A stretch of 64,000 nucleotides of DNA from an uncultured Rhodospirillales bacterium (GTDB taxonomy: Bacteria; Pseudomonadota; Alphaproteobacteria; Acetobacterales; Acetobacteraceae). The first letter of the stretch is position 1. Each line of letters begins with the position of its first letter. The stretch is from assembly GCA_903844135.1 (NCBI GenBank), contig CAIMSN010000003.1:1-64000 (forward strand), written 5' to 3'. Shown piece after piece: positions 6,496-59,464 of the stretch. Made by a program: the position numbers and the translations under genes. Under the pieces are notes generated by a model. The model did not search any database and was not told the DNA's origin. It saw only the letters and a program-made list of their open reading frames with translations.

Positions 6496-6651
6496 GGCGC
6501 GCGGTCCCCCTTCAGGTTCGGCCTCCGGAGGGTCCGGACGCCGGTCACGGGGGCTCTGTTCCGCCTCCGCCCCGGCTGGCGCCAGGCAGAGGTCGACACC
6601 GCATCGGCATCGCAGCGTTCCGGGCACCCCGCCGGACCGCACGGATGGACG
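6496..6651 (-). promoter_or_regulatory. Leader between riboswitch and first cob-operon gene
   Basis: This untranslated stretch of about 155 bases separates the 3' end of the riboswitch from the DUF1636 start. It holds the perfect palindrome CCTCCGGAGG (6522-6531) close upstream of the AAGGGGGACC ribosome binding site, plus several GC-rich arms. No U-tract terminator is obvious. Control could therefore act on translation, with CCTCC masking the Shine-Dalgarno, rather than on termination. That is an inference. I see no gene here. Confidence 0.45.
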
Positions 6652-6858
6652 ATGGCAGGTCTCCTGGCTTGCGGATCCGGATCGGGCCTTCGCCCGGTCC
6701 GCGCGTCCCGACCGCCTTCCCGAAGCGTCGGACCGCAAACGCGGCCCTGCTTCAGTGGCACATCGCGGGACGCTCACCGCCTACAGTTGCGGGGGCAGCG
6801 ACGGAGTTGGGCGTTTGCCGATTTTCATCGACGCCCGCACCGTCTTCCCTATTCACCT
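6652..6858 (-). promoter_or_regulatory. Cobalamin (adenosylcobalamin-type) riboswitch
   Basis: Read on the minus strand, the sequence has the conserved parts of the cobalamin riboswitch in order: GAATAGGGAAGACGGTG near 6855-6839, CCCCCGCAACTGTA near 6795-6782, the B12 box GCCACTG at 6759-6753, GGGAAGGCGG near 6724-6715, and AAGCCAGGAGACCTGCCA at 6670-6653. It lies upstream of the DUF1636-cobW-cobN-cobG-cobH operon in the right orientation, so high cobalamin should repress the operon. A P1-flanking arm may extend to about 6895. Confidence 0.97.
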
Positions 6859-6940
6859 CCCTCTCGGGAGGACCATCTGCCTTCGGTGTAGGCGCGTGAG
6901 GGCGGTTTGGGCAAGGGCCGAGGCCTCGGTCAGGCGTTCC

Positions 6941-21864: not shown

Positions 21865-22030
21865 AGAGACCGTCCGTAAACGTGTCCTGGCGAGTCAGAG
21901 GCGGCGCGCCGCGTCGCCGGCCGCGGGTCAGGGACGAGCATCGGAGCGGAGCGACCTGGTTGGTCGCGAGCACCGAAGCGCAGACCCTGGCCCGCGGATG
22001 ACCGCCAGGGCGCGTTTACGGACGGTCTCT
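21865..22030 (-). repeat. Structured post-stop repeat, copy 1 (after putA)
   Basis: This 166-bp element has 18-bp perfectly complementary ends (from AGAGACCGTCCG at the left to CGGACGGTCTCT at the right). Inside are CCTGGCG / CGCCAGG continuing the closing stem, a side hairpin built on GGCGGCGC / GCGTCGCC, and an inner stem CCGCGGGTCAGGG / CCCTGGCCCGCGG capped by the hairpin GCGACC-loop-GGTCGC. It begins 2 bases after the putA stop codon on the minus strand. Related copies are at 29808-29970 and 55541-55708, with compensated differences in several stems. Confidence 0.85.
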
Positions 22031-22032
22031 TC

Positions 22033-25000
22033 TCAGAGGGTCATGAGGCTGGCATTTCCTCCGGCCGCGGTCGTGTTGGTGCTGATGCTGCGCTCGTGCA
22101 TCAGCCATTCCAGATGCAGTCCGGCATCGGCGTGGTCGAGCCGGAACACCTGCACCAGCGGGCCGTCCAGGGCCGACAATTCGGCGACCAGCGGCACCAG
22201 CCGGTCGCGGCTGGCGAGCGCGGCGCCGACCGGCCCGGGGACGGTCTCCAGCGACAGCGCGTCCGGCAGCGCCCGGAGCGCGCGCGCGACCGCCGGCATG
22301 CCGGCCAGGTCGGCGCGGATCCGGGCCCGGTTGCCGGTCGCGAGCGTGGCGGCGAGCTGCAGCAGCAGACTGTCCTCGTCCGAGGCGACGCACAGCACCG
22401 TGCCGCGTGGCCGCACGCCGTAGAGGTTCCGCTCGCCGACCGGGCCGGGCAGGAGTCGTTCGGCGCCGAATGGGCTGCGTTCCATGATCGCCGCGCAGGC
22501 CGGGTGCAGCGCATGGCCGTCCAGCAGCGACAGGAACACGCGCGCCGGTTCCGGCGCCGCGCCCGGGAGCAGGGCCTCGGTGGCCGCGCCGCGCCGCAGA
22601 CGATGCAGGATCAACGGACCGCCGGCCTTGGGTCCGGTTCCGGACAGGCCGGTACCGCCGAACGGCTGGCTGCCGACCACGGCGCCGATCAGGTTGCGAT
22701 TCACATACAGGTTGCCGGCCTCGCTGCGCGCGGTGATGCGCTCGACGGTCTCGTCGATGCGGGTATGCAGCCCGAAGGTGAGGCCGTAGCCGGTGGCGTT
22801 GATCGCATCGACCACCCGCTCCTGATGCGCCTGCCGATAGCGCAGCACATGCAGCACCGGACCGAACACCTCCTCGCCGAGCTGGTCGATGCGGTCGATC
22901 TCGATCAGCGCCGGGGCGACGAAGCTGCCGCGTGCGCACGAGTCCGGCAGCGACGCGCGGGTCACGCGGCAGCCGAGCGCCGCCATGCGGGCGACATGCG
23001 CCTCGATCCGGTCGCGCGCCGCATCCGAGATCACCGGGCCGACATCGGTGGAGAGCAGCGTCGCGTCGCCGACGCTCAGTTCGGCCATCGCGCCGGCCAG
23101 GATCGCCAGCGTGCGGGGCGCGGCCTCCTCCTGCACGCACAGGATGCGCAGCGCCGAGCAGCGCTGTCCGGCGGAATCGAACGCCGAGGCGATCGCGTCG
23201 GCCACCACCTGTTCCGGCAGCGCCGCGCTGTCGGCCAGCAGCGCGTTCTGGCCGCCGGTCTCGGCGATCAGCGGCACCGCGCCGCGCTCCGCATCGGCGC
23301 GCCGCGCCAGGGTGGCGGCGATCGAGCGCGCGACCTCGGTCGAGCCGGTGAAGAGTACCCCCTGCACCGCAGCGTCGGCGACCAGGGCGGCGCCGATGCG
23401 GCCGTCGCCGGGCAGAAACTGCAGCACGCCACGCGGGACGCCGGCCGCGTGCAGCAGCGCCACCATGCGCGCGGCGATCAGCGGCGTCTCCTCGGCCGGT
23501 TTGGCCAGCACCACGTTGCCGGCGGCCAGCGCCGCGGCGATCTGGCCGGTGAAGATCGCCAGCGGGAAGTTCCACGGGCTGATGCACACCACCGGTCCCA
23601 GCGGCGCGCCGTCCGGCGGCAGGTCGCCGGCGGAGACCGCGGCATAGCGCAGGAAGTCGATCGCCTCGCGCACTTCGCCGACCGCGTTGGCGGCGGTCTT
23701 GCCGGCCTCGCGCATGATCGGGCCGAGCAGCGCGGGGAGCAGCTCCTGCAGCCGGTCGGCGGCGCGCGACAGGCAGGCGGCGCGGGCATCCGGCGCCGTC
23801 GCCGACCAGCCCGGCTGCGCCGCGACGGCGGCGGCCACGGCGCGGGCGACGTCGTCCGGCGCGGTGTCGGCGCACCGACCGACCAGGCGGGAGCGGTCGG
23901 ACGGGTCCAGGCAGTCGCGGGCCGGCATGGCGGCGGCCTCGACCGCGAGCAGCGGCGCGGCGACCGGCGGGATCGGGTCGGGCGCGTCGATCAGCGACGC
24001 CAGCCGCGCCAGGCAGGTCTCGCTGGCCAGGTCGAGGCCGGCGGAATTGCGCCGTTCCGGCCCGAACAGGTCGGACGGCGCCGCGATCGCCGCATGCGGC
24101 GCGCCGACCGGCCGGGCCGCCCGCGCCTCCGCCACCGGATCGGCGACCATCTCCGCCACCGGCACGTCCGGGTCGGTGATGCGGTTGACGAACGAGCTGT
24201 TGGCGCCGTTCTCCAGCAGGCGCCGCACCAGATAGGCCAGCAGGGTCTCGTGGGTGCCGACCGGGGCGTAGATCCTGCACGGCCGGTCCAGCTTCGCCGG
24301 TCCGACCACCTGCTCGTAGAGCGTCTCGCCCATGCCGTACAGGCACTGGAACTCGTAGTCGGCGGAGTCGCCGGCGATCGCCGTCACCGCGGCCACGGTC
24401 TGGGCGTTGTGGGTGGCGAATTGCGGGAAGATCGCGTCCGGCGCGGCCAGCAAGCGACGGGCGCAGTCGAGATACGACACGTCGGTATGCAGTTTGCGGG
24501 TGAAGACCGGGAAGTCGGACAGGCCGGCCTCCTGCGCCTTCTTGATCTCGCTGTCCCAGTAGGCGCCCTTGACGAGCCGCACCATGAGCCGGTGTCCGCT
24601 GCGACGGCCCAGCGCCACCAGATGGTCGATCACCGCCGGCGTGCGGCGCGCATAGGCCTGGATCACGAAGCCGATCCCGTCCCAGCCGGCGAGGTCCGGC
24701 TGCCCGCACAGGCTCTCCAGCAGATCGAGCGAGAGTTCGAGCCGGTCGGATTCCTCCGCGTCGATGTTCAGCCCGACATCGTGCCGGCGGGCCAGGCTGG
24801 CGAGCCCGGCCAGGCGCGGCAGCAGCTCGTCGCGGACGCGCTCCTGCTGCGCGCGGCCGTAGCGCGGATGCAGCGCCGACAGCTTGACCGAGATGCCGGC
24901 GCCGTCGCGCAGCGACCGGCCGCGATTGTGCGCGCCGATCGCGCGGATCGCGCCCTCGTATTCCGCCAGATAGGCGCGGGCGTCGGACTCGGTCAGCGCC

Positions 25001-25650
25001 GCCTCGCCGAGCATGTCGAACGAATAGCGGAAGCCTTCCGCCTCGCGCGGCCCGGCCTGGCGCAGCGCTTCGGCGATGGTCTCGCCCATCACGAACTGCT
25101 CGCCCAGGATGCGCATCGCCCGGTCCATGGCGCGCCGGATCAGCGGCTCGCCGCCGCGTCCGAGCACGCGCAGCAGCGCCGCCTGCAGGCCGGCCTTGCC
25201 GCCGCCATGGTCCTGCAGCCTGCCGGTGATCAGCAGACCCCAGGTGGCGGCGTTGACGAACAAAGACGGGCTGTTGCCGAGATGGGCGCGCCAGTCGCCG
25301 CCGGCGATCTTGTCGCGGATCAGCAGGTCGCGGGTGGCGGCGTCCGGGATCCGCAGCAGCGCCTCGGCCAGGCACATCAGCGCCACCCCCTCCTGGCTGG
25401 AGAGCGCGTATTCGCGCATCAGCCCCTCGACCGGGCGCGGCCGGCCGCGCATGCGCAGCGCCTCGACCAGACGCGCGGCGAGACGGGTCGCGCTCTCCGG
25501 GGTGGGTGGCGCGGTGGCGAGCAGGGCGGCGACGCAGTCCGGCTCGCTGCGCCGGGTGGCGTCGGTGATGCGGCGCCTGGTCTCGTCCGGCGCGCGCCAG
25601 ATCGGGGCGAAACCGCCATCGGCGGGGCATGCCGGCTGCAGATTGTCCAT
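22033..25650 (-). CDS. putA: Bifunctional proline dehydrogenase / delta-1-pyrroline-5-carboxylate dehydrogenase
   Basis: PutA oxidises proline to glutamate using FAD and NAD+. The 1205-aa protein (ATG at 25650, MDNLQPACPADGG) has an N-terminal proline dehydrogenase barrel with ISVKLSALHPRYG, RLVKGAYWDSEIKKAQ and FATHNAQTVAAV. The aldehyde dehydrogenase domain follows, with ISPWNFPLAIFTGQIAAALA, FTGSTEVARSIA, the general base in IAETGGQNALLAD, and the catalytic Cys in FDSAGQRCSALR. I see no N-terminal ribbon-helix-helix, so it is probably not autoregulatory like E. coli PutA. An alternative start lies about 23 codons upstream (MTLASARRLW). The stop is followed at once by structured repeat copy 1. 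Confidence 0.96.
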   Translation of the reverse strand: MDNLQPACPADGGFAPIWRAPDETRRRITDATRRSEPDCVAALLATAPPTPESATRLAARLVEALRMRGRPRPVEGLMREYALSSQEGVALMCLAEALLRIPDAATRDLLIRDKIAGGDWRAHLGNSPSLFVNAATWGLLITGRLQDHGGGKAGLQAALLRVLGRGGEPLIRRAMDRAMRILGEQFVMGETIAEALRQAGPREAEGFRYSFDMLGEAALTESDARAYLAEYEGAIRAIGAHNRGRSLRDGAGISVKLSALHPRYGRAQQERVRDELLPRLAGLASLARRHDVGLNIDAEESDRLELSLDLLESLCGQPDLAGWDGIGFVIQAYARRTPAVIDHLVALGRRSGHRLMVRLVKGAYWDSEIKKAQEAGLSDFPVFTRKLHTDVSYLDCARRLLAAPDAIFPQFATHNAQTVAAVTAIAGDSADYEFQCLYGMGETLYEQVVGPAKLDRPCRIYAPVGTHETLLAYLVRRLLENGANSSFVNRITDPDVPVAEMVADPVAEARAARPVGAPHAAIAAPSDLFGPERRNSAGLDLASETCLARLASLIDAPDPIPPVAAPLLAVEAAAMPARDCLDPSDRSRLVGRCADTAPDDVARAVAAAVAAQPGWSATAPDARAACLSRAADRLQELLPALLGPIMREAGKTAANAVGEVREAIDFLRYAAVSAGDLPPDGAPLGPVVCISPWNFPLAIFTGQIAAALAAGNVVLAKPAEETPLIAARMVALLHAAGVPRGVLQFLPGDGRIGAALVADAAVQGVLFTGSTEVARSIAATLARRADAERGAVPLIAETGGQNALLADSAALPEQVVADAIASAFDSAGQRCSALRILCVQEEAAPRTLAILAGAMAELSVGDATLLSTDVGPVISDAARDRIEAHVARMAALGCRVTRASLPDSCARGSFVAPALIEIDRIDQLGEEVFGPVLHVLRYRQAHQERVVDAINATGYGLTFGLHTRIDETVERITARSEAGNLYVNRNLIGAVVGSQPFGGTGLSGTGPKAGGPLILHRLRRGAATEALLPGAAPEPARVFLSLLDGHALHPACAAIMERSPFGAERLLPGPVGERNLYGVRPRGTVLCVASDEDSLLLQLAATLATGNRARIRADLAGMPAVARALRALPDALSLETVPGPVGAALASRDRLVPLVAELSALDGPLVQVFRLDHADAGLHLEWLMHERSISTNTTAAGGNASLMTL

Positions 25651-25782
25651 CACCGCGACTCCGAAGCGCTTCGTGTGCGTCCTCAACCACAACCGCCGGG
25701 CCGATGCCAGCGTCATCGCACGTTGATCGCGCGCGCTGCCGCGACCATCTGTAACCGTCGACGGTGCGGAGCGGACGGCAGG

Positions 25783-26751
25783 ATGGCAGACGACCCGTAT
25801 GGGATTCTCGGGGTTTCGCGCGACGCGGATCAGGCGGCGATTCGCAAGGCTTATCGCCGCCTGGCCAAGGCCAGCCATCCCGACCTGCATCCCGGCGACA
25901 AGGCGGCCGAGGAGCGGTTCAAGAAGATCGCCAGCGCCAATGGCCTGCTGTCGGACCCGGAGCAGCGCGCCAGGTTCGATCGCGGCGAGATCGACGCGTC
26001 CGGCCAGGAGCGGCATCGGCCGCCGCCCGGCGGCGGCTATCGCGCGCATGCGCAGGGCGCCGACGGAGCGCGGTATGGCGGCGCGCAATATTCAACGTCC
26101 GGTGCCGGCTTTGGCGGCGGGTTCTCCGAGGAGGATCTGGGCGACATTTTCGGCGGGATGTTCGGCGCCCGGGCCGGAGCCCGGGCTGGCGGCGGAGCGC
26201 GGACCCGTCCGGCCGGGCCGCTGCGTGGCGAGGATCGCAGCTACACGCTGTCGGTCTCGTTCGTCGATGCGGTGCTCGGCGCCACCACACGCATCACCCT
26301 TCCCGGCGGCGCGACTCTCGACGTCAAGGTGCCGCCCGGGATCGGCGACGGCCAGACCCTGCGGCTGCGCGGCAAGGGCGGCGACGGGCACGAGGGCGGT
26401 CCGGCCGGGGACGCGCTGATCCAGATCCATGTCGTGCCGGATGCGCGCTTCGTGCGCGACGGCGACGATATCCGCACCGAGGCGGCGATCGGCCTCCGCG
26501 AGGCGGTGCTGGGCGGTTCGGTGCAGGTGCAGACTCCGGCCGGGCCGGTGGCGCTGACGGTGCCGGCCGATTCCGATACCGGCAGCGTGCTGCGTCTGCG
26601 CGGACGCGGCGTGGCGGCGCACGGCCAGCGTGCGGCGGGCGACCTCTACGTGACGCTGACGGTGCGGCTCGGACGCGCCGACGCGTCGCTCCGCGCCTTC
26701 CTGCGCGGTGATCCGTCCGAGCCCGCGAAGGAAGCGGAGGGCACGTCATGA
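25783..26751 (+). CDS. DnaJ-class chaperone, CbpA-like
   Basis: The 322-aa protein has an N-terminal J-domain with the HPD motif at residues 32-34 (ASHPDLHPGDK). A Gly-rich linker (FGGGFSEEDLGDIFGGMFGA) follows, then two beta-sandwich DnaJ C-terminal domains (DVKVPPGIGDGQTLRLRGKG, AGDALIQIHVVPDARFVRDGDDI). There is no zinc-finger CxxCxGxG region, so it is CbpA/class II-like rather than DnaJ. It stimulates DnaK. The next gene overlaps its stop (ATGA) and encodes a CbpM-like partner, strengthening the CbpA assignment. It is divergent from putA. Confidence 0.92.
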   Translation: MADDPYGILGVSRDADQAAIRKAYRRLAKASHPDLHPGDKAAEERFKKIASANGLLSDPEQRARFDRGEIDASGQERHRPPPGGGYRAHAQGADGARYGGAQYSTSGAGFGGGFSEEDLGDIFGGMFGARAGARAGGGARTRPAGPLRGEDRSYTLSVSFVDAVLGATTRITLPGGATLDVKVPPGIGDGQTLRLRGKGGDGHEGGPAGDALIQIHVVPDARFVRDGDDIRTEAAIGLREAVLGGSVQVQTPAGPVALTVPADSDTGSVLRLRGRGVAAHGQRAAGDLYVTLTVRLGRADASLRAFLRGDPSEPAKEAEGTS

Positions 26752-29807: not shown

Positions 29808-29970
29808 GAGGGGGGCTGGAAACGTGTCCTGGCGAGTCAGAGGCGGCGCATGGCGACGCCGGCCGCGGGTGAGACGCGCGCACCGGAGCGGAGCGGCCTC
29901 CTGGCCGCGAGCACCGGAGCACAGCGGATCGCCCGCGGATGACCGCCAGGGCGCGTTTACGGCCCCCCTC
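29808..29970 (-). repeat. Structured post-stop repeat, copy 2 (after fdxA)
   Basis: This 163-bp relative of the element at 21865-22030 starts directly after the fdxA stop codon (minus strand). Its outer arms are GAGGGGGGC / GCCCCCCTC, a different sequence from the GAGACCG arms of copies 1 and 3 but still complementary. The side hairpin is GGCGGCGC-ATG-GCGACGCC and the internal hairpin is GCGGCC-TCCT-GGCCGC. The inner stem (CCGCGGGT...) is less well paired here than in the other copies. Confidence 0.8.
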
Positions 29971-30303
29971 TCAGGGGGTGTGGGGGTTGGGGGAGAGCAG
30001 CTCGGCCTTGCCGGGCTTGTCCTTCCAGTCGTCGGCGTCGGCCGGGGGGGTGCCCTTGCGGGTGATGTTCGGCCAGGTCTTGGAATAGTTGGTGTTGGTC
30101 TCGGCCCAGGCGGTGGCGCGATCGTCGCTGTCCGGCAGGATCGCCTCGGCCGGGCATTCCGGCTCGCAGACGCCGCAATCGATGCATTCGTCCGGATTGA
30201 TCACGAGCATGTTCTCGCCCGCATAGAAGCAATCGACCGGGCAGACCTCGATGCAGTCCATGTACTTGCAGCGGATGCAGTTCTCGGTGACCACGTAGGT
30301 CAT
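29971..30303 (-). CDS. fdxA: 7Fe ferredoxin
   Basis: The 110-aa ferredoxin has the FdxA cysteine pattern. C9, C17 and C50 should bind a [3Fe-4S] cluster, and C21, C40, C43 and C46 a [4Fe-4S] cluster ([17 protein letters not shown], then [12 protein letters not shown]). C12 and C25 are the usual extra cysteines of the family. The C-terminal region ([23 protein letters not shown] in outline) is also typical. The start is preceded by GGAGATGG. It follows the helicase and S4 genes on the same strand, the order common in alphaproteobacteria. The stop is fused to structured repeat copy 2. Confidence 0.96.
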
Positions 30304-30446
30304 CGTCCATCTCCGATCATGCGACGGCGGCCGATCCGCGGCCGCTCGTCCATCAGGTAAAGTGTGACGTGCGAACGGGCGCGCAAGCCCGGTCGATCAC
30401 GTCGGGCGGCGAGATATGAAAGCGTTTGTGTTCCAGCGCAAGGCGG

Positions 30447-55540: not shown

Positions 55541-55708
55541 GAGAGACCGTTCGGAAACGTGTCCTGGCGAGTCAGAGGCGTCGCGCAGCGACGCCGGCCG
55601 CGGGTGATCCCCGAGCACCGGAGCGGAGCGGCCTTGCTGGCCGTGAGCACCGGAGCACAGCGGATCACCCGCGGATGACCGCCAGGGCGCGTTTCCGACC
55701 GGTCTCTC
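55541..55708 (-). repeat. Structured post-stop repeat, copy 3 (after TonB receptor)
   Basis: A 168-bp copy whose right arm touches the stop codon of the TonB receptor gene (minus strand). The outer arms are GAGAGACC / GGTCTCTC plus TCGGAAACG / CGTTTCCGA. The side hairpin is GGCGTCGC-GCA-GCGACGCC, the inner stem CCGCGGGTGATCC / GGATCACCCGCGG is perfect, and the internal hairpin is GCGGCC-loop-GGCCGT. This is the best-paired of the three copies. Confidence 0.85.
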
Positions 55709-58076
55709 AGAAGCGGTAGGCTACGGTGCCGATGACCTGCATCGGCGGGATATATTGAACGCTGGTCTGGGCGGTGCCGTAGGGGTCGGTATATTTGCTG
55801 TTGATACCGGCGACGTCGGTCACGTTGGTCGCGGCGAGCTGGACCGTCCAGTTGGTGCGGTTCGGGACGTAGAGCAGGCTCAGATTGATCACCCCGTAGG
55901 AATTGATCCTGTCCAGCGAGGGTTCGTTGAAGACGCGTTCCCACTCCGCGCCGCGGAAGATGAACTCCGCGCGCGGCGTCAGCGTGCCGTACGGCACGTC
56001 GAAGGTGTAGGCGATGCTCGCTGATCCGGAGATCTTGGGGATGGCCGGAGCGCTCTTGCCGTTCAGGTTGCGGGCGTTGGCCTCGACCAGCGCGGCGCAG
56101 CCCGGATTGTAGTAGATGCCGCCGAACGCGCACGGGCTGGGATAGGGCCGGCTCTCGATCGCGTTCTGCACCGTCGAATCGATGGTGAAGTAATCACCGT
56201 TCACGATAGCGGCTTCCCAGGCCAGGTTGACGTTGAGATGCAGCCTGTCGTGCAGCGCGGCGTAGGAGCCTTCGGCCTCCAGGCCGTAGGCATGGACCGA
56301 GGGAATGTTGGCGATGCCGCCATCGAACGGGATCGGGTCGTTCTCGATATACTGCATGTTATGATAGAAATAGTAGAAGGCGGCCAGATTCAGGCGCAGG
56401 CGGTGATCGAGGAACATGTTCTTCGACCCGATCTCGAACGCCGTGTTGGTCTCCGGCACGAAGGTTTCCGGAACCACGAGCTGGCCGTAGATGCCGTTGA
56501 CGCCGCCGGGTTTGTAGCCGCGTGACAGCGAGCCGTACAGCAGGTTGTCGGGCGTGGCCTGATAGTCGAGCGAGAACCGGTAGGTCGGCACGTGGTCGGT
56601 ATAGTTCTGGCTGACGGTGTCGATCGCGAATTGGGAAAAATTATGGCTGTTCGACCCGTAGTAGTCGTAGTTGTAACGGCCGCCGACCGTCACGCCCAGT
56701 TTCGGCAGGATATGGTAGGTCGCCTGTCCGAACACCGAATAGGAACGGCGCTGTACCGCGGTGTCGTTGCCGTAGCTCAGATTGCCTGGCGGCCTGGTCT
56801 CGATGTCCGGCCCGACCGCCAATTGCGCCGGACCGGGGCTGGCGCAGGGCGCGGTGGTGCATTCGAACTCGGCCACGAACTGGTGGCTCGACTGGTTCAG
56901 CGCGAACGCGCCGACCACCCAGTCCAGACGCGAGCCGGGCAGCGACACCAGATCGAATTCCTCGTTGAAGTTCCTGACCTTGGTGTTCCAGGCGGCGACG
57001 TCGTCGTAGATCCCCAGCAGCGAGACCGCGCTGCGCGAACCGTCCTCCTGCTGCTGGTGGTTGAGGCCCTGATAGCCGCTGACCGATTTGATGCTGAACC
57101 AGTCAGTGTCGTATTGCAGGTTGAGGTGGTAGAGCTGGCTGTGCAGGTTGAACTCGGACGGATAGTCCTGCTCGAACTTGCGCGGATCGGTCTGCGGATC
57201 GAGCACGTTCTTCTGCTCGGCGCCGTTCTGGTCGGCGCCCGACCACATGCCGGTCAGGGTCGCGGTGAAGCGTGCCGTGGGTTTCCACAGCACCGCGGCC
57301 TTCATGGCCTGGTCGTGCGCGTCGTCCAGGTTGTTGCTGGACAGGATGGTGTCGGTGCCGAATCCGTCATGGTCGAATTTCTGCGCCGACAGCCGGATGG
57401 CGACGGTGCTGCCGAGGGGGATGTTCACCTCCGCGCGCTCGCGGAACAAGGCGTAGGTGCCGGCGCTCACATCGGCGGCGCCGTCATAGACGCCGAGCTT
57501 CGGCTGCTGGGTGACGATGGAAATCGCGCCGCCGGTCGCGCTCTGCCCGTACAGCGCGCCCTGCGGACCGCGCAGCACCTCGATGCGGTTGATGTCGAAC
57601 AGCGTCTGGTCGAGCGAGATGGTGTTGGCGATATAGACTCCGTCGATGAATTCGGAGACGCCCGGCGACGTCGTCAGGGAGTTCTCCGGGGTTTCGGAGC
57701 CGATGCCGCGGATGCTGACCAGGTTCTCGAAGCCGGAGGCCTTGGTGATCTCCAGGCCGGGCACGGTGGCGTTCAGATCGGAGATCTGGGTCGAGACCCG
57801 CTTGTCCAGGGTGGCGGCGGATACCGCGGTCACCGCCAGCGGCGTGTTCTGCAGGTTGGTCTGCCGCCGTTCGGCGGTGACCACGACGGTTTCCAGACCG
57901 CCCTTGCCGCTCGCCTCCGCCGGCGACGCCACCGGGTTCGCCGGTCGCCGGGGTGCCGCTGGCGGGGTGGCCGACGCGGCCTGCGCGCATGCCGCCCGGA
58001 CGGGAACCAACGGCAGCAGCGCCGTCGTGCAGAGGAGCAACGCCTTGCGGCAGTCGCACAGGATGCGCCAAGCCAT
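55707..58076 (-). CDS. TonB-dependent outer-membrane receptor (catabolic cluster)
   Basis: The 789-aa receptor (ATG at 58076) has a signal peptide (LLLCTTALLPLVPVRAACAQA) and a TonB box-like region (LETVVVTAERR). Its plug domain includes DLNATVPGLEITK, VSIRGIGSE and VLRGPQGALYGQSATGGAI, and the barrel ends in the expected terminal Phe (GTVAYRF). It is related to pigment or aromatic-compound-type receptors in layout. It is divergent from the RutA-like gene. Its job should be uptake of the substrate of the catabolic region. The stop is followed directly by repeat copy 3. Confidence 0.93.
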   Translation of the reverse strand: MAWRILCDCRKALLLCTTALLPLVPVRAACAQAASATPPAAPRRPANPVASPAEASGKGGLETVVVTAERRQTNLQNTPLAVTAVSAATLDKRVSTQISDLNATVPGLEITKASGFENLVSIRGIGSETPENSLTTSPGVSEFIDGVYIANTISLDQTLFDINRIEVLRGPQGALYGQSATGGAISIVTQQPKLGVYDGAADVSAGTYALFRERAEVNIPLGSTVAIRLSAQKFDHDGFGTDTILSSNNLDDAHDQAMKAAVLWKPTARFTATLTGMWSGADQNGAEQKNVLDPQTDPRKFEQDYPSEFNLHSQLYHLNLQYDTDWFSIKSVSGYQGLNHQQQEDGSRSAVSLLGIYDDVAAWNTKVRNFNEEFDLVSLPGSRLDWVVGAFALNQSSHQFVAEFECTTAPCASPGPAQLAVGPDIETRPPGNLSYGNDTAVQRRSYSVFGQATYHILPKLGVTVGGRYNYDYYGSNSHNFSQFAIDTVSQNYTDHVPTYRFSLDYQATPDNLLYGSLSRGYKPGGVNGIYGQLVVPETFVPETNTAFEIGSKNMFLDHRLRLNLAAFYYFYHNMQYIENDPIPFDGGIANIPSVHAYGLEAEGSYAALHDRLHLNVNLAWEAAIVNGDYFTIDSTVQNAIESRPYPSPCAFGGIYYNPGCAALVEANARNLNGKSAPAIPKISGSASIAYTFDVPYGTLTPRAEFIFRGAEWERVFNEPSLDRINSYGVINLSLLYVPNRTNWTVQLAATNVTDVAGINSKYTDPYGTAQTSVQYIPPMQVIGTVAYRF

Positions 58077-58147
58077 CGCCGGTCCTTCGAGGGAATGGAG
58101 GAAACTCGTTTCGTTGCCGCAGTATGACCAGCCGCACCTATGACGGT

Positions 58148-58176
58148 CTTGTGTCGCAACGCACAAGCTCTTGTGC
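58148..58176. promoter_or_regulatory. CTTGTG inverted/direct repeat operator candidate
   Basis: CTTGTG (58148-58153), CACAAG (58162-58167) and CTTGTG (58170-58175) lie in the divergent promoter region of the TonB receptor and RutA-like genes. The middle and right words form a perfect GCACAAG-CT-CTTGTGC palindrome, and the left and middle words are an inverted repeat 8 bp apart. This looks like an operator for a dimeric regulator. The regulator is not identified. Confidence 0.5.
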
Positions 58177-58333
58177 GCCGCGCCATCGCGGCCGCCCTTG
58201 CACGCGGACGGCGCCGTTCGTGTCGTGGTAGGCTGTGCGCGGGCGGCAAGTCGCCGGGCGCGCTCGGCCAAGTCAGGCCGGCGCGCGGGGCCTATGGGAG
58301 ACGGCGAGGACCAGTGATCGGGGAACCACGTCC

Positions 58334-59464
58334 ATGACCGGATCGCCAGTGGCGATGCCTCGCTTCGGGTTGCCGTCCGACCAAGGCGGCAAGGATTTCG
58401 GCATCTTCCTGCCGATGGCCAATGGCGGCTGGATCCTGTCCAGCACCGCGCCACGCCTCGACGGGTCCTGGGACTACAATCTGAAGGTGGCCCTGCTGGC
58501 GGAAGAGACCGGGTTCGACTTCATCATGTCGATGGCCAAATGGCGCGGCTATGGCGGCGTGACCCAGCATTGGCGCTCCGCGCTCGACTCGCAGATGCTG
58601 ATGGCGGCCCTGGCGGCGGTGACCAAGCGGGTCAGGGTGCTGACCACGGTGCATACGCTGCTGCAGAACCCGGCGGTGACCGCCAAGATGATCGCCACGC
58701 TCGACCGGATCAGCCACGGCAGGAGCGGGCTGAACGTGGTGAACGGCTCCTACAAGGGCGAATTCGAGCAGATGGACGCCTGGCGTCGCAATGTCGGACA
58801 CGACGAGCGCTACGACCTGGCCGACGAATGGATGCAGATCATCAAGCGGCTCTGGTCCGAGCCCTCGGTCGACTTCGCCGGCCATTACTTCACCATGACC
58901 GACTGCCAGTCCGATCCGAAGCCGGTCAGCCCGCCCTTCCTGGTCTGTGCCGGCACCTCGGCGCGCGGCATGCGCTTCACCGTCGACCAGATGGACGCGA
59001 TGTTCGCCGGCGGCCGCGACGATGCCGAACTCGCCGGGATCAGCCGCTCGGTCAAGGAACTGGCGCGCGCGGCGGGCCGCCGGCTGCGCACCTACACCAT
59101 GATGACGCTGGTGATCGGCGAGACCGACGCGGCGGCCGAGGCGGAGGCGGCGCGCTACCGGGAGGGATTCGACCAGGAGGCCTGCTTCGGCATGATGCGC
59201 GCCTACGGTTTCCTCGACAGCGAGATCGGCAAGGAGAACTCGTTCGTGCAGAACGCCCGCTCCGGCTTCATGTCGGCGCGGCTGATCGGATCGGCGCAGA
59301 CCATCGCAGCAAGGATGATCGAAATGCTGGAGAATTGCGACCTGGACGGCTTCATGCTGATCTTCCCGGACTATCTCGCCGGCATGCCGGTGTTCGTGAC
59401 CGAGATCCTGCCGGTGATCCGCGCCCGCTTTCCCACCCGCCCGGTGTTCGCCGATGCCGTCTGA
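58334..59464 (+). CDS. LLM-class flavin monooxygenase, RutA-like
   Basis: The 376-aa protein (ATG at 58334) is a bacterial luciferase-like flavin oxygenase. It reads DFGIFLPMANGGWILSST, then WDYNLKVALLAEETGFDFIMSMAKW, ISHGRSGLNVVNGSYKGEFEQM and FVCAGTS-type blocks, closely resembling RutA, which opens the uracil ring in pyrimidine degradation. The next gene is an isochorismatase-fold hydrolase (RutB-like) overlapping by 11 bp. No rutC-G genes are nearby, so this may act on a different heterocycle. Confidence 0.9.
   Translation: MTGSPVAMPRFGLPSDQGGKDFGIFLPMANGGWILSSTAPRLDGSWDYNLKVALLAEETGFDFIMSMAKWRGYGGVTQHWRSALDSQMLMAALAAVTKRVRVLTTVHTLLQNPAVTAKMIATLDRISHGRSGLNVVNGSYKGEFEQMDAWRRNVGHDERYDLADEWMQIIKRLWSEPSVDFAGHYFTMTDCQSDPKPVSPPFLVCAGTSARGMRFTVDQMDAMFAGGRDDAELAGISRSVKELARAAGRRLRTYTMMTLVIGETDAAAEAEAARYREGFDQEACFGMMRAYGFLDSEIGKENSFVQNARSGFMSARLIGSAQTIAARMIEMLENCDLDGFMLIFPDYLAGMPVFVTEILPVIRARFPTRPVFADAV

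Follow-up and report, generated by a model that had tools for sequence, protein, structure and literature searches.

Small palindromic repeats are common in bacteria, and their movement and role are mostly obscure. Among the closest described systems are the repeats Bru-RS1 and Bru-RS2 of Brucella (Halling & Bricker 1994, as cited), which measure 103-106 bp (PMC2677664, PMC10800456, PMC3163539, PMC2267715) and are listed with a conserved secondary structure (PMC2267715). The RIME and ABC repeats of Sinorhizobium are alphaproteobacterial intergenic repeats as well (PMC2573895; RIME also in PMC2873474), and transcription at REP-like elements has been described in S. meliloti (PMC2873474). In Bradyrhizobium, Br-REP1 and Br-REP2 are 3'-UTR repeats with several stem-loops and complementary RNAs (PMC5082802). 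REP and BIME sequences are present in many copies on the 3' side of genes, often adjoining the end of the ORF, and the GTAG termini of REPs often give a TAG stop codon (PMC3733652). Intergenic palindromic repeats beside ORF ends are, judging from the passages on REPs (PMC3733652), Bru-RS, RIME and Br-REP drawn on here, an already known kind of element.

The element studied here was located in a 64,000-nt stretch of contig CAIMSN010000003.1 (the window), from an uncultured bacterium of the Acetobacteraceae. A preliminary description had reported three structured stretches, at 21865-22030, 29808-29970 and 55541-55708, and all three were recovered at these positions. A covariance model of the ~140-nt core (R1), built from 16 cores that include those of the three window copies, matches at 21878-22017, 29820-29958 and 55555-55694, always on the minus strand and with 148-153 bits. 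The next-best matches in the window reach 19 bits, besides weak second-strand matches (28-32 bits) at the same three places. Outer arms lengthen the pairing from these cores to about the limits given above.

All three copies lie at the end of a gene on their own strand. Copy 1 (21865-22030, minus strand; core AAACGCGCCCTGGCGG ... CCAGGACACGTTT, 21878-22017, 148.1 bits) is found 2 nt behind the TGA stop codon (22033-22035, minus strand) of a PutA-like proline dehydrogenase/aldehyde dehydrogenase gene. The corresponding ORF (22033-26088, minus strand) carries Pro_dh, Aldedh and Pro_dh-DNA_bdg domains; its 5' limit is that of the open frame, with a putative start. Copy 2 (29808-29970, minus strand; core 29820-29958, 149.7 bits) is flush with the stop codon (29971-29973, minus strand) of a 4Fe-4S ferredoxin-like gene, an open frame at 29971-30396 (minus strand, putative start) with Fer4 domains and DUF3470. 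The final two bases of copy 3 (55541-55708, minus strand; core 55555-55694, 152.8 bits) fall inside the stop codon (55707-55709, minus strand) of a TonB-dependent receptor gene (55707-58454, minus strand, putative start). Taken with the AAACGCGCCCTGGCGG end first, the distances from the three stop codons are 2, 0 and -2 nt. Folded as minus-strand RNA, copies 1 and 3 reach -112.6 and -123.6 kcal/mol (z -9.3 and -11.4), and none of 200 shuffles was as good.

The fold consists of a long closing stem leading to a three-way junction, from which a short side hairpin and a long inner stem, capped by an apical hairpin, emerge. The closing stem, side hairpin and inner stem had been described earlier and are present in the copies. 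From the outside inwards, the closing stem is made of a locus-variable outer arm, then AAACG..CGTTT and then CCTGGCG..CGCCAGG. Full-length cores of 129-145 nt, together with two arms of about 12 nt, give whole copies of ~165 bp. Of the shared architecture that had been proposed, the stems hold and the shared outermost sequence does not: the outermost ~12 nt vary between copies and fall into unrelated sequence types (GAGACCG.., GAGCCTG.., GAGCGTTCC.., GAGGGGGG..). The arms of copy 2, GAGGGGGGC and GCCCCCCTC, are complementary, though their sequence is unrelated to the arms of copies 1 and 3. The same complementarity was found in 27 of 28 full-length copies folded with their arms, L029 being the exception, and such terminal inverted repeats are shared with MITEs.

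To evaluate compensatory change, 23 full copies were aligned together with their arms, giving 62 pairs, and compared with 500 shuffles and with slid versions. In this alignment, 96.6% of the cells are paired. Both sides have changed in 22 of the 62 pairs (shuffle mean 11.7; at most 8 in slid versions), and such changes concern 83 cells (shuffle mean 21.9; at most 13 in slid versions); no shuffle attained these values. For further pair types, the observed value is not above the shuffles (202 of 500). The test is silent on the side hairpin, because it is invariant across the 23 copies. The stems stay paired while their sequence changes, and the pairing of the three-way junction is conserved. Covarying arms could also be accounted for by insertion of the element into the loop of pre-existing terminator hairpins. 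This candidate was dropped, as no matching arms were seen by eye at the congeneric gene ends; the arms therefore belong to the element, with the caveat that intergenic DNA turns over fast.

No Rfam family was matched by the element at its gathering cut-off, either in the window or at 14 loci from this and other lineages. At a lenient threshold, the best score of copy 3 was 19.5 bits, where the cut-off is 62. The window's only Rfam match is a cobalamin riboswitch elsewhere, at 6637-6892 (minus strand, 104.9 bits). The preliminary description, which had recommended this comparison, knew of no described element that matches; this stands with respect to Rfam and has to be qualified with respect to similar palindromic repeats, such as Bru-RS and RIME, that are known in alphaproteobacteria. 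Its view that the element is more complex than a simple palindromic repeat or a terminator agrees with the lack of a T-run after the stem. At least 6 T in 8 nt on the mRNA strand were present in 1/26 copies of the source genome, 2/60 of its relatives and 2/71 named-genome copies among the matches listed, compared with 1, 4 and 0 in the control, and an intrinsic terminator was rejected for want of a T-run behind the stem.

Like Bru-RS1 and Bru-RS2, the element is a dispersed intergenic palindromic repeat of an alphaproteobacterium. It is set apart from them by description, with ~165 bp and a three-way junction against 103-106 bp. Exact copies of the apical hairpin are also found in Ochrobactrum teleogrylli (26) and Brucella grignonensis (1; loci L156 and L206), and this suggests a possible kinship with Bru-RS. 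By description, RIME and ABC of Sinorhizobium are alike in being intergenic repeats of alphaproteobacteria. With REP and BIME, the element shares the many copies, the position 3' of genes and the frequent proximity to an ORF end. REPs as described, however, are 20-40 bp long, tagged by GTAG/CGTC and associated with a RAYT, whereas this element is longer and its ends show no enrichment of the tags (13/157, against 17 at control positions 100 nt out). The RAYT Y1 transposase (PF01797) was detected in 0/4 genomes of the source bacterium's family and in one of two Mesorhizobium genomes; RAYT mobilisation was consequently rejected for the source family. The printed consensus of Br-REP1 and Br-REP2 does not resemble the core of the element by eye. 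Lichenicola cladoniae is presumably a member of the Acetobacteraceae. This alphaproteobacterium is singled out in the RepRanger paper with 1,369 predicted REPs (PMC12306157), and relatives of the element may be part of that count.

The number of copies is much larger than the three that had been claimed, as the genome holds about 40. The covariance-model search, one of the checks proposed in the preliminary description, returned 40 matches at E<=1e-4 in the 3.78-Mb draft genome of the source bacterium, as well as matches elsewhere; with copy 1 as the query, blastn gave 58 matching pieces in this genome. R1 matches were obtained in 12 of 60 genomes searched, the source genome among the 12. Among 289 genomes drawn from the whole class, four carried the exact apical hairpin. 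It was counted in 11 genomes, all picked because they carried it: 46 and 39 in two Mesorhizobium, 34 in Inquilinus, 35 in Gluconacetobacter, 26 in Ochrobactrum teleogrylli and 1-11 in the remaining six. A scan of named genomes for the hairpin gave at least 117 stretches, so that the hairpin is at least as widespread as the matches listed, which include genomes titled Mesorhizobium, Phyllobacterium, Devosia, Sphingobium, Novosphingobium, Inquilinus, Gluconacetobacter and others. Outside the alphaproteobacteria, the few matches listed are titled Listeria, Paenibacillus, Opitutae and Myxococcales. A Myxococcales MAG contig (L196) and a Listeria contig (L157) have exact apical hairpins within palindromes; of the non-alphaproteobacterial matches, only L196 passed the boundary filter and enters the counts below. 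The distribution is patchy, and the subfamilies appear by eye to be lineage-specific. At two loci of G045 (L042, 1501-1612; L051, 1501-1575), the apical hairpin is accompanied by little likeness in the outer stems; G045 is a genome of another family, and the G+C of its matches is 0.45-0.50.

Carriage by plasmids or phages was considered and rejected for copy 3, which matches no plasmid and is matched in phages only over short stretches, at chance level (coverage at most 26% at E 0.5). The Mesorhizobium-type element is present in 36 plasmid records, mostly very large ones. On the 4.8-Mb contig C1 of G001, 12 of 13 model matches and all 10 exact hairpins are on one strand, most of them at 3.0-4.7 Mb. 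A preference for one replication strand was rejected as the cause: dnaA is at 1.97 Mb, and if replication starts there, copies occur in both orientations with respect to the fork. In the exact-hairpin count, the remaining multicopy genomes are less one-sided than G001 (0 against 10). Of the congeneric genomes, G001 and G003 have many copies, as does the source genome, and no copy was found in G002.

For the analysis of placement, element ends were set by extension of the palindrome, and genes were not used. From the source genome, the 31 places with both core ends recognised were taken, not all 40 model matches; from the relatives, 66 of 80 rows, leaving out duplicates of one place and second-strand and short partial matches. 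Five of these 97 places were discarded for lack of a recognisable apical hairpin. Together with 87 hairpins among the matches listed in the named-genome scan, this gave 179, of which the 157 with ends 100-190 nt apart were kept and scored: 26 from the source genome, 60 from relatives and 71 from named genomes, the last among the matches listed.

A codon-usage gene finder placed a same-strand left neighbour beside 25/26 copies in the source genome, 47/60 in relatives and 55/71 among the named-genome matches listed; in about a quarter of the copies elsewhere (13/60, and 16/71 of the listed matches), there is none. The stop codon of this neighbour is within 3 nt of the element start in 18/26, 23/60 and 39/71 (the last among the matches listed) and within -10..+10 nt in 19/26, 41/60 and 45/71 (again, the last among the matches listed). 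Without the gene finder, an in-frame stop was sought at -4..+2 of the gene-side end, the frame being open for at least 240 nt, or for more than 100 nt if it ran off the locus. Such a stop was found in 17/26, 28/60 and 41/71, and at the opposite end on the other strand in 0, 5 and 7 of the same three sets, the last in each case among the matches listed. By chance, a stop triplet is expected in 8-13% of sites, and only 17-27% of these triplets end an open frame of the required length. The conserved 'AAACGCGCCCTGGCGGTCATCC' end is the one nearest the upstream gene. In five source-genome copies, the gene finder places the stop codon over 10 nt into the element, which therefore supplies it.

The downstream side is less regular. 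In the source genome, 14 convergent downstream neighbours stand against 11 on the same strand, at scattered distances. Of the convergent genes, 0/14 in the source genome, 1/31 in relatives and 8/31 among the named-genome matches listed stop no more than 10 nt from the far end of the element, so the placement is not exclusively one-sided. The stop codon also tends to be mirrored by complementary bases in the far arm. In 23 related Mesorhizobium-type copies, most of which hold a stop codon at the three columns concerned, the arms match there in 52, 57 and 74%, compared with 30, 37 and 40% with far arms shuffled among copies. Annotated plasmid records agree with the placement at L292, L295 and L296, where the palindrome begins right at the annotated CDS end, and disagree at L289-L291 (one orthologous site, about 45 nt away), L293 and L294.

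Matching gene ends in relatives are found without the element. Among the 30 best-matching gene ends fetched from four congeneric species, some of which may be paralogues and which cover 10 of 20 copies queried, R1 had 0 matches. In several of them (L004, L007, L009, L016, L017, L024), the stop codon is, by eye, at the same codon. A second search joined the two flanks at each of 13 insertion sites and looked for them in another 24 genomes, 22 of them titled Mesorhizobium. It gave, among the matches listed, 29 loci (10 of the 13 sites) with both flanks, none of which has room for a full element, the gaps being at most 48 nt; these places were picked by flanks matching on both sides and are biased towards clean sites. 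At several of these sites, the element is inserted exactly behind the stop codon and the subsequent native bases are intact, e.g., TCTAA-element-TGATTC when filled and TCTAATGATTC when empty. No target-site duplication is apparent by eye in the 29 comparisons, in which the flanks are about 80-98% identical and a short duplication could escape. Remnants of the 5' half persist at three of the 29 places (G331 for the L135 site, G329 and G341 for the L159 site); part of the pattern is therefore loss of an inherited copy, not new insertion. A transposase or an autonomous copy was not found, and no long copy was noticed among the matches in the draft genome. In two pairs of loci, L056/L039 and, across genera, L048/L077, relatives seemingly have a copy behind the same gene, to judge by eye from the C-termini; this could be inheritance or repeated insertion.

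The two strands do not fold equally well. Folded as RNA, 154 of the 157 elements are more stable on the strand complementary to the mRNA, with an average advantage of 7.5 to 24.3 kcal/mol per lineage group; with DNA parameters, 155 are. When the apical part is removed, the outer stems alone favour the complementary strand in 150 of 156, with 4 the other way. Symmetrically mutated perfect palindromes, used as a control, leaned slightly the same way (81 vs. 64 of 150). As the copies are related, the 154 are not independent events, and the 14 named lineage groups are the safer count; all 14 lean the same way on average. On the mRNA-like strand, A.C pairs exceed G.T pairs by 106 to 33 in the source genome, 253 to 69 in relatives and 223 to 105 in the named genomes, under a scoring that treats both alike; this excess is largely the repeated counting of a few conserved columns. 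Four such columns in the source genome hold C.A or A.C in the majority of copies, which reads as U.G on the opposite strand; the sporadic differences lean the same way, weakly (20 to 12). The plus strand, on which the window copies had been described earlier, is the better-folding one. This asymmetry speaks against a structured RNA on the mRNA strand; of the structured-RNA option raised in the preliminary description, an antisense RNA remains compatible, as does a folded single-stranded DNA.

With a probability of a little under 0.6, the element is best explained as a non-autonomous mobile palindrome, like REP and Bru-RS, that is inserted flush behind stop codons and has its working fold on the template strand. 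A REP/MITE-like mobile element was among the options raised earlier, and the many copies, the matching gene ends without the element and the conserved pairing speak for it. The preliminary description had set its reading against many genome copies without conserved pairing; the copies are indeed many, but the pairing is conserved. The element would spread by insertion, with copies mostly directly behind a stop codon and the 'AAACGCGCCCTGGCGGTCATCC' end by the gene. A folded single strand, either template-strand DNA or an antisense transcript, would be recognised by a putative mobilising enzyme via the highly conserved apical hairpin, and the presence of the same hairpin across genera suggests one shared recognition system. 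Our guess is that the folded molecule is DNA rather than antisense RNA. The flush position may come from targeting, or from selection keeping those copies that are harmless to the reading frame and the downstream region. That insertion is actually aimed at stop codons, a complementary folded strand of DNA or RNA being joined directly behind the stop, perhaps through base pairing between the end of this strand and the stop codon, is doubtful; no bacterial transposon that senses where a stop codon lies is known to us. The inverted stop codon in the far arm could reflect template switching within the palindrome or pairing between the end and the stop codon during insertion. The host gene would gain a strong hairpin right after its stop codon, which may alter mRNA stability or translation.

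A functional 3'-UTR RNA would also show this position: a hairpin in the mRNA would stabilise the transcript, terminate transcription or delay the ribosome at the stop codon, and selection would keep it in place. Its constant orientation, its near-zero distance from the upstream stop codon, its very stable fold and the compensatory changes fit this explanation. Moreover, among the small RNAs predicted in Thalassospira lucentensis is a sequence that agrees exactly with part of the apical hairpin, on the mRNA strand (PMC6413936), and E. coli REPs at most 15 nt from a stop codon reportedly stall ribosomes (as cited in PMC12306157). It is nevertheless unlikely, as the mRNA strand is the worse folder in 154/157 and, in most copies, is mismatched (C.A) at positions that form U.G on the other strand; furthermore, no T-run follows the stem, and matching genes in relatives do without the element. 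The strand asymmetry in all lineage groups would be expected of an antisense transcript that tolerates G.U pairs, encoded by the element, read from its far side into the 3' end of the gene and selected for its fold. In Bradyrhizobium, sense and antisense start sites cluster at ORF ends and complementary sRNAs contain repeats, although the repeat is a different one (PMC5082802). Such a transcript is distinctly improbable here, since the downstream side offers no constant partner, with the 14 convergent and 11 same-strand neighbours of the source genome at scattered distances.

The mobile palindrome thus described would share some properties with the attC sites of integrons, which are located behind the stop codon of a gene, carry R boxes (RYYYAAC / GTTRRRY), fold on the bottom strand and are acted on by a tyrosine recombinase. 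A folded recombination site of this type would explain both the placement and the preference for the complementary strand. The sequence of attC sites is not conserved, however, unlike the apical hairpin of the element, and no cassette array was noticed around the copies inspected. The integron integrase (TIGR02249) was above its curated cut-off in none of six genomes; partial matches far below it occurred in five of the six, likewise in 13 of 14 control genomes. An attC site was rejected for want of an integrase above the cut-off, and an attC-like explanation is very improbable. Among open-licence papers, no printed account was found that combines placement flush with the stop codon and a fold on the complementary strand. 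The combination of three measurable properties, namely placement at stop codons, compensatory pairing and a fold on the non-messenger strand, narrows the possible mechanisms and makes them testable.

Several copies of the source genome are rearranged. Two miniature deletion derivatives (L245, 1990-2040; L246, 1870-1920) have kept both arms and lost nearly all of the inside. Solo ends on contigs C103 and C119 had been considered as transposons; this was rejected, as they are deletion derivatives. On contig C69 (23035-23450; L250, 9036-9451), three copies are arranged head to tail with a repeat of about 125 nt; two of them are without their 3' third (in the plus orientation of the window), and the last copy is complete.
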